Shown here: piece after piece, positions 5,370-12,358 of the stretch
Layout of the letters: the number at the start of each line of letters is the position of its first letter
Numbering within the stretch: position 1 is the first letter of the stretch
Assembly: GCF_018771565.1 (NCBI RefSeq)
Contig: NZ_CP076326.1
Location: 2,480,001 to 2,544,000, forward strand
DNA from: Thermoflexus hugenholtzii
Lineage (GTDB): Bacteria > Chloroflexota > Anaerolineae > Thermoflexales > Thermoflexaceae
Direction of reading: 5' to 3'
Length of the DNA stretch: 64,000 nt
Notes under the pieces: model-generated
Told to the model about the DNA's origin: nothing
The model's database searches: none
The model's input: the letters and a program-made list of their open reading frames with translations, nothing else
Made by a program: the position numbers and the translations under genes

Positions 5370-5410
5370 GGCGATCCTCCCCATCGTTGGGGTGCGTGAT
5401 CCGTTTTCCG

Positions 5411-5480
5411 GTAGGAGGGGCTTTCGCCCCGAACTTCCCATCTTCGATGACGCAAAGGTCGCAGCGGAAGCCGCTCCTAC
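5411..5480. repeat. Inverted REP-like doublet (REPIN-like element) at the thiolase stop codon
   Basis: Two about 24-base units face each other: 5411-5434 reads GTAGGAGGGGCTTTCGCCCC onward, and the reverse complement of 5457-5480 reads GTAGGAGCGGCTTCCGCTGC onward. They are near-copies with a handful of differences, and each is itself an imperfect palindrome, separated by 22 bases. The form matches REP doublets of other bacteria, which start GTAGGAGC. The TAG stop of the thiolase gene is the TAG inside the right unit. Confidence 0.7.
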
Positions 5481-6805: not shown

Positions 6806-7324
6806 TCAGGGATCTCCGGATGGCCGCTGAAGGGAGGAAGCCAGCTCTTCGAACAGCGGCCGGAGACGGCGATAGGTGTCGTCCAGCCATTCGGGGAGCA
6901 CGCGGGTGTTGCCGATGACCGGCATGAAATTCGTGTCCCCCGTCCAGCGGGGGACGACGTGGATATGGACGTGATCGGCCACCCCGGCGCCGGCGGGCCG
7001 GCCGATGTTGGCCCCGACGTTGAACCCCTCCGGCCGGTAGGCTTGACGAAGGGCCTTCAAGGAAAGGGCGACGAGCTGCATCACCTCCAGCATCGTCGGA
7101 GGGTCCAGATCCTCCAGGCTGGGCACGTGGGCGTAGGGGATGACCATCAGGTGGCCGTTATTGTAGGGGTATCGGTTGAGGGTCACATATGCGGTGCGCC
7201 CGCGAAGGAGGATGTGTTCCGCCTCGTCGGAACCGTCGACCTTCCGGCAAAAGATGCAACCCTGAGGCGCCTCGCCCTCCCCTTTCAGGTAAGCCATCCG
7301 CCAGGGGGTCCAGAGCCGTTCCAT
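6806..7324 (-). CDS. HIT-family nucleotide hydrolase/phosphorylase
   Basis: A 172-residue histidine-triad protein. The triad HVHIHVV is at residues 118-124, with the alpha-phosphate contact GFNVGANIGRPAGAG before it. An N-terminal pair C23/C26 (CIFC) belongs to the zinc-binding subgroup. Such proteins cleave or phosphorolyse dinucleoside polyphosphates such as Ap4A or adenylated intermediates; the WTPWRMAYL start resembles bacterial Ap4A-phosphorylase-like HIT proteins. The start is supported by GGAG and by an upstream sigma70-like promoter at 7356-7384, so it is transcribed separately. Confidence 0.88.
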   Translation of the reverse strand: MERLWTPWRMAYLKGEGEAPQGCIFCRKVDGSDEAEHILLRGRTAYVTLNRYPYNNGHLMVIPYAHVPSLEDLDPPTMLEVMQLVALSLKALRQAYRPEGFNVGANIGRPAGAGVADHVHIHVVPRWTGDTNFMPVIGNTRVLPEWLDDTYRRLRPLFEELASSLQRPSGDP

Positions 7325-7355: not shown

Positions 7356-7384
7356 ATTTTATCCGTTTTGTCGGGGATCGACAA
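7356..7384 (-). promoter_or_regulatory. Sigma70-type promoter for the HIT gene
   Basis: On the minus strand TTGTCG (7379-7384) and TAAAAT (7356-7361) are separated by exactly 17 bases. Transcription would begin near 7349, about 25 bases before the HIT start codon. Confidence 0.6.
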
Positions 7385-7387
7385 AGC

Positions 7388-7411
7388 GGCCCGGCCCTGG
7401 ACGGCCGGGCC
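7388..7411. terminator. GC-rich hairpin between the sigma-factor operon and the HIT gene
   Basis: A 9-bp perfect stem (7388-7396 with 7403-7411) and a 6-base loop, next to the MITE-like element. In minus orientation it is followed by GCTTTGTC, a poor T tract, so it could end the sigma/DUF5667 transcript only weakly. Confidence 0.4.
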
Positions 7412-7418
7412 TTGTGAT

Positions 7419-7498
7419 GGGTGTGTCCCAAAATCGTAGGACAACTGCGAGCAGTTGTCCTACAAAGCAGCCAGGCCCGACAAAATTGGGACACACCC
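7419..7498. mobile_element. 80-bp MITE-like element with terminal inverted repeats and 8-bp target duplication
   Basis: The ends are inverted repeats: GGGTGTGTCCCAA at 7419-7431 and its exact complement at 7486-7498. The element is flanked by a direct repeat CTTGTGAT (7411-7418 and 7499-7506), read as a target-site duplication; a 9-base reading with an 79-bp element is possible because both sides are followed by G. Inside is a hairpin of 13 bp with a 2-base loop (7436-7463). No coding capacity is present, so it would depend on a transposase elsewhere. Eight- to nine-base duplications are typical of IS256- and ISL3-type transposases; which applies here is not known. Confidence 0.75.
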
Positions 7499-7536
7499 CT
7501 TGTGATGAGGATATGCAGCCGGAGAGAGCCTTACCT

Positions 7537-8514
7537 CTACCTTCCCGGAGAGCCTTTTGGGCCTTGATCTCCCGGCGGAGCGGAATCCTGGCCTCGGGGA
7601 GGGCCCGGAGTGTCTTTTTTCTCCTGGCCTGGAGGGGTGCGGACCGGGCGAGGCGTTTCTTTCTTCTCCTGGCCCGGTGGGGTGCGCGGCGCAGAAGGCG
7701 TCTCCTGTTTCTCCAGGCCCGGCGGGGTGTGGATTCGCTCCCGCAGGATCTCCGCCGTCGGCTCCGGCAGGACCGGCGTCTCCACCGACCGGGTCGGTTC
7801 GGGGATCCCCCCTTCGGGCCGGCCGAGGACCGGCGCCAGCCCGGCCCAGCGCTGGCGCGCGCGGGCCAGGGCGGAACGGACGTCCGGCGGGGCGACCGCT
7901 GCGGCCTCCTCCAGGAGGACGCCCTGACGCTCGTAGAGGGCGCGCAGCCGCGCCGCGGGCCCTGCGGGGCCTTCCGCCCCCAGACGGGCAGCCTCTTCCA
8001 GACGGGCCAAGCTCTCCTCGGCGAGGTCGGGGAGCCAGCGCCCCCGGGCGGCGCTCGCCTCGAACTCCGACCAGCGTCGCTCCGCCAGGTAGAGGGCCCG
8101 CTCCTCCGGCGACATCCCCAGGGTGACCAGACCTTCCACGGCCCGTTTGACCGGATACAGGGGCTCGCCGGGCAGGCTGGCCTCCGCCGCTCCCACCGCG
8201 CTCAAAAGGACCAGGATCAAGCCCAGGACGGCCACCAGCGCCCACGCCCAGCGGAAGACCGGCCGGGACGCCCGCGGGGCAGCCGCCCGCCGGGCTGCGC
8301 GGAGCTGCCCCTGACGGATCAGCCGTCGGCGCGCTGCGGGAGAGAGAGCCACCTCCTGGCCGCGCCGGAGCCAGAGGGCGGTCTCCAGAAGCGGGCGCAA
8401 CGGGACCGCCTCGGGGACTTCCCGCAGGAGCGTCTCCAGGTCCGCGCCCTGCTCCAGCCGGCGCAGACAGCGCTCCAGGATCTCGATCTCAAGCGCGTCT
8501 CGCTTCGGATCCAT
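7537..8514 (-). CDS. DUF5667-type single-pass membrane protein, putative regulator of the adjacent sigma factor
   Basis: A 325-residue protein. Residues 1-80 are a helical cytoplasmic part, 87-109 a membrane segment, and SLPGEPLYPVKRAVE just after it is the DUF5667 hallmark. Residues 120-230 are Ala/Glu-rich helices outside the membrane. The tail is Pro/Thr-rich with three 15-residue repeats (TPPGQEKKETP type). The start overlaps the stop of the ECF sigma gene (TGATG; a GTG one codon earlier is also possible), a coupling normal for a sigma factor and its membrane anti-sigma factor. That role is inferred from position and topology; no zinc motif of classical anti-sigma domains is seen. Confidence 0.75.
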   Translation of the reverse strand: MDPKRDALEIEILERCLRRLEQGADLETLLREVPEAVPLRPLLETALWLRRGQEVALSPAARRRLIRQGQLRAARRAAAPRASRPVFRWAWALVAVLGLILVLLSAVGAAEASLPGEPLYPVKRAVEGLVTLGMSPEERALYLAERRWSEFEASAARGRWLPDLAEESLARLEEAARLGAEGPAGPAARLRALYERQGVLLEEAAAVAPPDVRSALARARQRWAGLAPVLGRPEGGIPEPTRSVETPVLPEPTAEILRERIHTPPGLEKQETPSAPRTPPGQEKKETPRPVRTPPGQEKKDTPGPPRGQDSAPPGDQGPKGSPGR

Positions 8515-9068
8515 CACCGGATCTTCTCCAGATAACGGGCTAAGGCGCTCAGGGCGCGATGCTGGAGGGCCTTGACAGCGCCCACGGATTTCCCCATCGC
8601 CCGAGCCACTTCCTCCAGGCTCATCCCGACCAGGAAGCGCAGGACCACCACTTCCCGCTGCTCCTCGGTGAGCACCCGCAGCGCCCGCTGGATCATCTCC
8701 GAGACCGCGATCTCGTCCTCCGGGATGTCCTGGCTGATCTGCGGCCCCGTCTCCGTGTCCTCCAGCGCCACGAGGGGGCGCCGCCCCTGTCGTCGCCAGT
8801 GATCGATCAGACGGGCCCGGGCGATGCGGAACAGCCAGGCGCCGAAGGGAAGGCCCCGCTCCTCATACCGCGGCAGGTCCTCGATCATCTTGAGGAACAC
8901 ATCCGCGGTGAGATCCTCCGCCAGCTCGGCGTCGCCCACCCGGTAGAGCAGATAGCGGTAGACGCCATCGGCGTAATGCTGATACAGGGCCGCGATGGCC
9001 TCCGGATCTCCCTTCCGCGCCCGGGCGATCCAGCGTCGCTCTTCGGGATGAGGGGTGAGCAGGCCCAT
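8514..9068 (-). CDS. ECF-type RNA polymerase sigma factor
   Basis: A 184-residue sigma70-family protein of ECF architecture. Region 2 covers about residues 24-95 (YRYLLYRVGDAELAEDLTAD and FGAWLFRIARARLIDHWR). Region 4 covers about 128-178, with EEQREVVVLRFLVGMSLEEV leading into the helix-turn-helix. Region 3 is absent, as in all ECF factors. It is translationally coupled to the DUF5667 membrane protein. The region upstream holds a candidate self-recognised promoter and a divergent gene for an exported protein that could share control. GGAGGATGAGGG precedes the ATG. Confidence 0.9.
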   Translation of the reverse strand: MGLLTPHPEERRWIARARKGDPEAIAALYQHYADGVYRYLLYRVGDAELAEDLTADVFLKMIEDLPRYEERGLPFGAWLFRIARARLIDHWRRQGRRPLVALEDTETGPQISQDIPEDEIAVSEMIQRALRVLTEEQREVVVLRFLVGMSLEEVARAMGKSVGAVKALQHRALSALARYLEKIR

Positions 9069-12295: not shown

Positions 12296-12323
12296 GTAGG
12301 GCAACTGCTCGCAGTTGCCCTCC
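12296..12323. repeat. Palindromic repeat copy (same hairpin as inside the MITE-like element)
   Basis: GTAGGGCAACTGC, a 2-base loop, then GCAGTTGCCCTCC. This is the same hairpin as 7436-7463, with compensatory changes (A to G in the left arm, T to C in the right) and one mismatch near the end. It lies between the csp and dnaX promoters. No terminal repeats or target duplication are visible here. Confidence 0.6.
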
Positions 12324-12358
12324 ATGTCCTGCGCCGGAGGCAGGGGCAGGGCGCTGCG

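Follow-up and report, generated by a model that had tools for sequence, protein, structure and literature searches.

An 80-bp MITE with putative ISKra4-type ends and an internal, independently dispersed palindrome in Thermoflexus hugenholtzii

A repeat-bounded insertion lies between two host genes in the window analyzed here (64,000 nt of Thermoflexus hugenholtzii contig NZ_CP076326.1, positions 2,480,001 to 2,544,000). The features of the locus, with their basis in brackets, are as follows.

6806-7324, minus strand: downstream host gene with a HIT domain (context)
7411-7418, unstranded: left target copy, 8 bp, CTTGTGAT (present once in the G004 empty site)
7419-7498, plus strand: 80-bp MITE copy with three differences from the family consensus (copy search and consensus)
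7419-7431, plus strand: left terminal inverted repeat GGGTGTGTCCCAA (computed repeat arms)
7419-7437, plus strand: 19 bp identical to the putative right IS end of Thermoflexus sp. 629H.11, L208 and L211 (end comparison)
7436-7463, unstranded: 28-bp perfect palindrome GTAGGACAACTGC-GA-GCAGTTGTCCTAC, which is dispersed outside the element as well (arms and genome counts)
7465-7477, plus strand: 13-bp stretch continuing the right IS end, AAGCGGCCAGGCC in the consensus and with one change here (end comparison)
7475-7498, minus strand: 24 bp identical, in the inward direction, to the left IS end of L199 (629H.11), with a 22-bp match to the left end of Roseiflexus L186 (end comparison)
7486-7498, minus strand: right terminal inverted repeat (computed repeat arms)
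7499-7506, unstranded: right target copy, CTTGTGAT (direct repeat and empty site)
7537-8517, minus strand: host gene with a weak DUF5667 match (E 0.0013, below the Pfam cut-off), its stop codon 38 bp from the element (context)

The ORF at 7537-8517 is preceded by an ECF sigma gene. A preliminary description of this locus had put the element just downstream of an ECF sigma/DUF5667 operon; its position past the stop codon and the sigma gene agree with this, whereas the DUF5667 assignment stays below the cut-off. A sigma-70-like promoter match (9/12) is found on the minus strand at 7356-7384, before the HIT gene, and the element is 34 bp upstream of it, as against 13-17 bp for the promoter-targeting elements covered in the available text of PMC3942029. 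Elsewhere in the window (approximately 5410-5480), a second dispersed repeat family, GTAGGAGCGGCTT...GCCGCGACC..., was seen by eye, and also occurs in L089 (830-1000) and L157 (840-970), that is, in the T. hugenholtzii genome and in G006.

The stretch 7411-7506 is made up of exactly 8 + 80 + 8 bases (target copy, element, target copy). Its terminal arms (7419-7431 and 7486-7498) pair at 13/13 positions, or 18/22 when extended, and its internal arms (7436-7448 and 7451-7463) pair at 13/13 around the 2-nt center GA; the coordinates, 80-bp body, 13-base inverted ends and internal hairpin of the preliminary description were right to the base. The direct repeat as read is 10 nt long (CCTTGTGATG). 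However, the true target duplication is 8 nt of this, as shown by the empty site in G004. The element has the properties of a MITE: it is 80 bp long (below approximately 500 bp) without a transposase gene, has terminal inverted repeats and a target duplication, occurs in many dispersed copies, and has ends in common with the IS ends of relatives (22-24 bp plus 19 bp), although those IS copies are decayed or incomplete. It is like bacterial MITEs such as Nezha and Chunjie, as presented in the available text of PMC10969869, in being short and non-coding, with inverted ends, a duplication and many, mostly intergenic copies, but differs from them in that most of its body is a second palindrome with a dispersal of its own.

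A 1,051-bp query across the insertion site was searched in nine genomes of the genus. In G004, the left (96%) and right (94%) flanks adjoin, overlapping by exactly 8 bases, and the element is absent, the joined site (G004:C32) reading ...GGGCCTTGTGATCAGG..., with one GGGCCTTGTGAT followed by CAGGATATG. G006 likewise is without the element at the orthologous site, which is more diverged, and in the remaining genomes of the genus the flanks align only partly near the site, so that these genomes are left out of account. Because G004 holds an exact empty site with one CTTGTGAT, the insertion at 7419-7498 is proven, or as good as certain; the 8-base direct repeats claimed earlier are confirmed as a target duplication, and the proposed check for empty sites in relatives came out positive. 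The insertion was also described as recent, which can be assessed in part: the copy has 3/80 differences from the consensus and is absent in the nearest relative searched. When 12 G004 and G006 loci were tried for shared insertions, nine gave rows, and five (three G004, two G006) matched T. hugenholtzii flanks at element positions, in a test biased towards sharing, as the T. hugenholtzii stretches compared were mostly element-bearing. The shared insertions, together with the empty site, indicate that the family includes both old and lineage-specific insertions.

Inside the window, the ends are not in excess (two matches at up to two mismatches, 1.5 expected), and a search of the whole genome (G000, one contig of 3.32 Mb) was therefore needed. 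There, GGGTGTGTCCCAA with at most one mismatch is found at 98 sites, versus four for the reversed control. A search with the element gave 84 matching pieces, many of them the palindrome on the opposite strand (92 candidates at first look, 40 scored). Pairing of ends gave 53 rows, and after five of odd length or overlapping were dropped, at least 48 full-length copies remained (75 or 78-80 bp, with up to four end mismatches in total), so the genome search for ends proposed in the preliminary description turned out positive. The 48 copies are 0 to 9 of 80 positions from the consensus, 21 on the plus and 27 on the minus strand, and their center dinucleotides are TC (30), GA (12), TT (4) and AA (2); two of the three consensus differences of the window copy are its center GA in place of TC. 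Target duplications of 7-9 bp flank 40/48 copies (24 exact 8 bp, 11 with 7/8, four exact 9 bp and one exact 7 bp) and are absent from 8/48, whereas shuffled flank pairs show a mean of 0.86 and a maximum of five (1000 shuffles). The empty site, the copies and the duplications in 40/48 together support the transposase-driven insertion of a MITE, as first described. Hairpin propensity at the target sites gave a p of 0.014 in one untuned test; it was given no weight, nor was the split of copies between convergent and divergent gene pairs, which depends on a crude gene caller. No description of this MITE family was found in the literature searched, which consisted of open-licence papers.

Folded as RNA, the element reaches -44.2 kcal/mol (z -8.6, 200 shuffles). 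This very stable fold, its location 38 bp past a stop codon and the placement of copies mostly between genes (38/44 by a crude gene caller, with six inside genes and 4/48 not placed; an initial version of this caller makes the window approximately 82% coding) would suit a structure kept as a regulatory RNA element or a terminator of the sigma-factor operon, the repeats being incidental. However, the element is wholly absent at the G004 orthologous site, which speaks against an ancestral role, a search for an intrinsic terminator-like site at this position found none, and copies stand at dozens of genome positions, making this explanation very unlikely.

Unpaired ends (up to one mismatch) were followed as candidates for a full IS in the T. 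hugenholtzii genome, and those examined resemble diverged, truncated or hairpin-less relatives of the MITE, or a mosaic. The mosaic occupies approximately 500 bp between two end copies (G000:C1:3010979-3011479, L089 580-1080), contains repeats of the GTAGGAGCGGCTT family and has no recognizable transposase. A frame to its right (L089 1122-1679) looked by eye like a transposase tail, and gave nothing with Pfam.

Beyond this genome, full MITE copies are present in G004 and G006. Some part of the element was matched in 14/100 genomes searched (T. hugenholtzii included), mostly the inner palindrome alone, and the 22-base right end at up to two mismatches in 16/396 genomes of the class (T. hugenholtzii included; reversed control 0). 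A pattern of left end plus leader matched only G085 (1/396 of the class); since it required AGTAA, it was bound to miss the GGTAA of the 629H.11 end, and its zero counts are of little value. Scanning named genomes produced 43 stretches, among which are some from Thermoflexus RSWP15 and 629H.11, from Ca. Thermoflexus japonica and from Roseiflexus sp. 629F.7. In other lineages, the ends of the element surround different bodies (72 to 430 bp), of which several have 7/8 or 8/8 bases duplicated and others none. Among the side findings are longer MITEs (217-245 bp) that have these ends and bodies made of other palindromes (L159, L164, L168, L184 and others, in G369/RSWP15 and Chloroflexi 626A.7), and in L130 and L164 the GTAGGACAACTGC palindrome occupies the place of unrelated sequence in L143. 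Copies without the palindrome also occur: a 48-bp copy in G006 (L157 2283-2330) with 8/8 bases duplicated, a 53-bp copy in G006 with 2/8, and a 50-bp copy in the T. hugenholtzii genome at 1983516. A pair of ends 1.67 kb apart in G006:C244, considered as an IS, instead belongs to two short elements of 53 and 48 bp with an apparent host gene between them.

The best candidate relatives of the parent IS come from other lineages. L186, from Roseiflexus sp. 629F.7, is a decayed 1,143-bp stretch between perfect ends with a 7/8 target duplication. It has two reading frames offset by -1, interrupted by a further in-frame stop, and its second frame matches the NCBIfam ISKra4 transposase model NF033572 (E 1.8e-10, 40.5 against a cut-off of 205 bits, approximately 80/422 positions), while Pfam gave nothing on this frame. 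A related C-terminal half of this transposase is found in G002 (53% identity, E 1e-21), as a gene remnant that stops 13 bp inside a perfect GGGTGTGTCCCAA. The L186 fragment matched in 4/20 genomes, itself included, with G002 the best, and among relatives of the Roseiflexus genome 6/60 matched, that genome included, the others weakly (best 6e-9). NF033572 matched in 4/19 genomes examined; G004 and G006 are not among them, though both carry the MITE, and in the T. hugenholtzii genome neither NF033572 nor the L186 fragment found an ISKra4 transposase. The proposed search for an IS with the same ends was successful in relatives, which have the ends with putative ISKra4-type transposase genes, but no such transposase was found in T. 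hugenholtzii itself. Of the two absences that were to count together against the MITE, of further copies and of transposase ends in the genome, the first does not occur, so the pair does not hold as a whole, and the MITE reading is supported.

The 629H.11 IS is known from contig ends, without its transposase; these ends are called ISKra4-type because they resemble L186. With the MITE consensus they agree over 24 bp on the left (L199) and 19 bp on the right (L208 and L211), the match of L186 to the MITE is 22 bp, past the 13-bp core, and the left ends of L199 and L186 align through the leader into AGGAGGTG, a ribosome-binding-like stretch. The right-end sequence AAGCGGCCAGGCC resumes in the MITE beyond the palindrome. 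From these shared stretches, the MITE reads as fused IS ends, apparently in the order right end, palindrome, rest of the right end, left end, and an ISKra4-type source is very likely.

Elements related to Mutator have 8- or 9-bp duplications and inverted repeats of 18-39 bp that carry a terminal C, and p-MULT 4 is present in Chloroflexi, according to the available text of PMC3942029; the duplication length and the terminal C of the inverted repeats are both seen here. As in the ISKra4 family (ISMich2, ISKra4 and ISAzba1 groups), the ends have terminal GGG/CCC, the inverted repeats are approximately 22 bp and the duplications 8 bp or sometimes 9 bp; the transposase fragment of the putative parent matches NF033572, though below its cut-off, and its two frames are offset by -1, as in the ISMich2 group in the same portion of that paper. 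The differences are that the window element is non-coding and 80 bp, and that the parent copies are decayed or incomplete.

Both an 8-bp duplication and GGG ends also occur outside ISKra4. This favors a MITE of another IS family with 8-bp duplications (IS256, ISL3, IS1595, IS6 and the like), as does the failure of both transposase searches to find a parent in the T. hugenholtzii genome. Against such an origin, which is improbable, two putative ISKra4-type transposase genes from two lineages, neither of them intact, lie inside the same ends, and the end match runs past the 13-bp core to 22-24 bp. The feature at 7411-7506 is interpreted, with high probability, as a single insertion event in which a non-autonomous MITE derived from an ISKra4-type IS (Mutator-like, p-MULT 4) entered this site. 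The MITE would have formed by fusion of approximately 24 bp of left end and approximately 32 bp of right end of the IS, the 28-bp palindrome being lodged in the right-end part. A transposase acting in trans, probably an ISKra4-type enzyme rather than a different one, would have bound the GGGTGTGTCCCAA ends, inserted the 80 bp and duplicated 8 bp of target; the enzyme may have come from an element that this genome has since lost or that never became fixed in it, and the palindrome may be a passenger that is not needed for transposition.

The inner palindrome has its own distribution. At up to two mismatches it is found 70, 45, 59, 0, 18 and 49 times in G000, G001, G002, G003, G004 and G005, and 13, 1, 41, 13, 108 and 0 times in G006, G008, G025, G081, G369 and G396, with none for the reversed control. 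G001, G005 and G025 have zero matches to the 22-base right end, and G002 has three. In T. hugenholtzii there are 82 palindrome sites (up to three mismatches), and 58 of the 78 taken are within 70 bp of an end, while 20 are not. A stand-alone variant without inverted ends, GTAGGGCAACTGC-TC-GCAGTTGCCCTCC, is seen in the window at 12297-12324, and 20 or more further sites of this stand-alone kind exist in the genome, a large part of them having the same GGGCAACTGC arm. Among 41 stand-alone copies from G001, G002, G005 and G025 (40 stretches, drawn from the best matches and not at random), 0/41 lie within 80 bp of an end (three mismatches allowed), and their flanks show no steady target duplication. 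In one orthologous pair (94% over 990 bp), the center is TC in G005 (L278 480-510) and GA in G002 (L293 490-525), this swap being the only change in the near flanks, which looks like an in-place inversion of the center. The palindrome is an independent dispersed repeat, REP-like, since copies are found in genomes with few or no ends, 41/41 copies lack ends, MITE copies without the palindrome exist and the center is inverted.

Being a short palindrome in many copies without a consistent target duplication, it resembles a REP. The available text of PMC3733652 describes GTAG-tagged REPs, reported in Chloroflexi too and some of them inside longer palindromes, and these are likewise short, GTAG-starting and high in copy. 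They differ in that the GTAG here is paired within a perfect 28-bp palindrome with ends alike (GTAG/CTAC), and in that a tyrosine transposase does not follow the palindrome: Y1_Tnp (PF01797) genes were found in none of G001, G002, G004 and G005 (45, 59, 18 and 49 palindromes), in assemblies that are incomplete, and once each in G003 and G008 (0 and 1 palindromes). PF01797 thus does not track copy number as an associated REP tyrosine transposase should, with incomplete assemblies as the qualification. The GTAG start and the dispersal of the palindrome on its own could suggest that the whole family spread as a REP by such a transposase, the outer repeats being secondary. However, this is scarcely credible given the 8-bp duplications at the outer ends, the duplicated hairpin-less copy in L157 and the distribution of Y1_Tnp genes.

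The finding is a new family of MITEs, very probably of the ISKra4 kind, with a REP-like palindrome; it is not a new class. Tentatively, and with some doubt, the palindrome may be a second, self-standing Anaerolineae element that is not spread by a tyrosine transposase and whose center inverts in place, the MITE family having been born when it landed in an ISKra4-type IS end and was subsequently moved to dozens of positions. The family gives a thermophilic Chloroflexota lineage a countable MITE with a proven empty site, very probably tied to an ISKra4-type (Mutator-like) IS. The nesting of the palindrome makes carrier transposition and palindrome spread distinguishable as two processes, and genomes with the palindrome and without the carrier are natural controls for REP-like movement without a tyrosine transposase. 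If the palindrome is indeed self-standing, the way in which a palindrome spreads by itself, with neither duplications nor a partner transposase, would become testable in these genomes.
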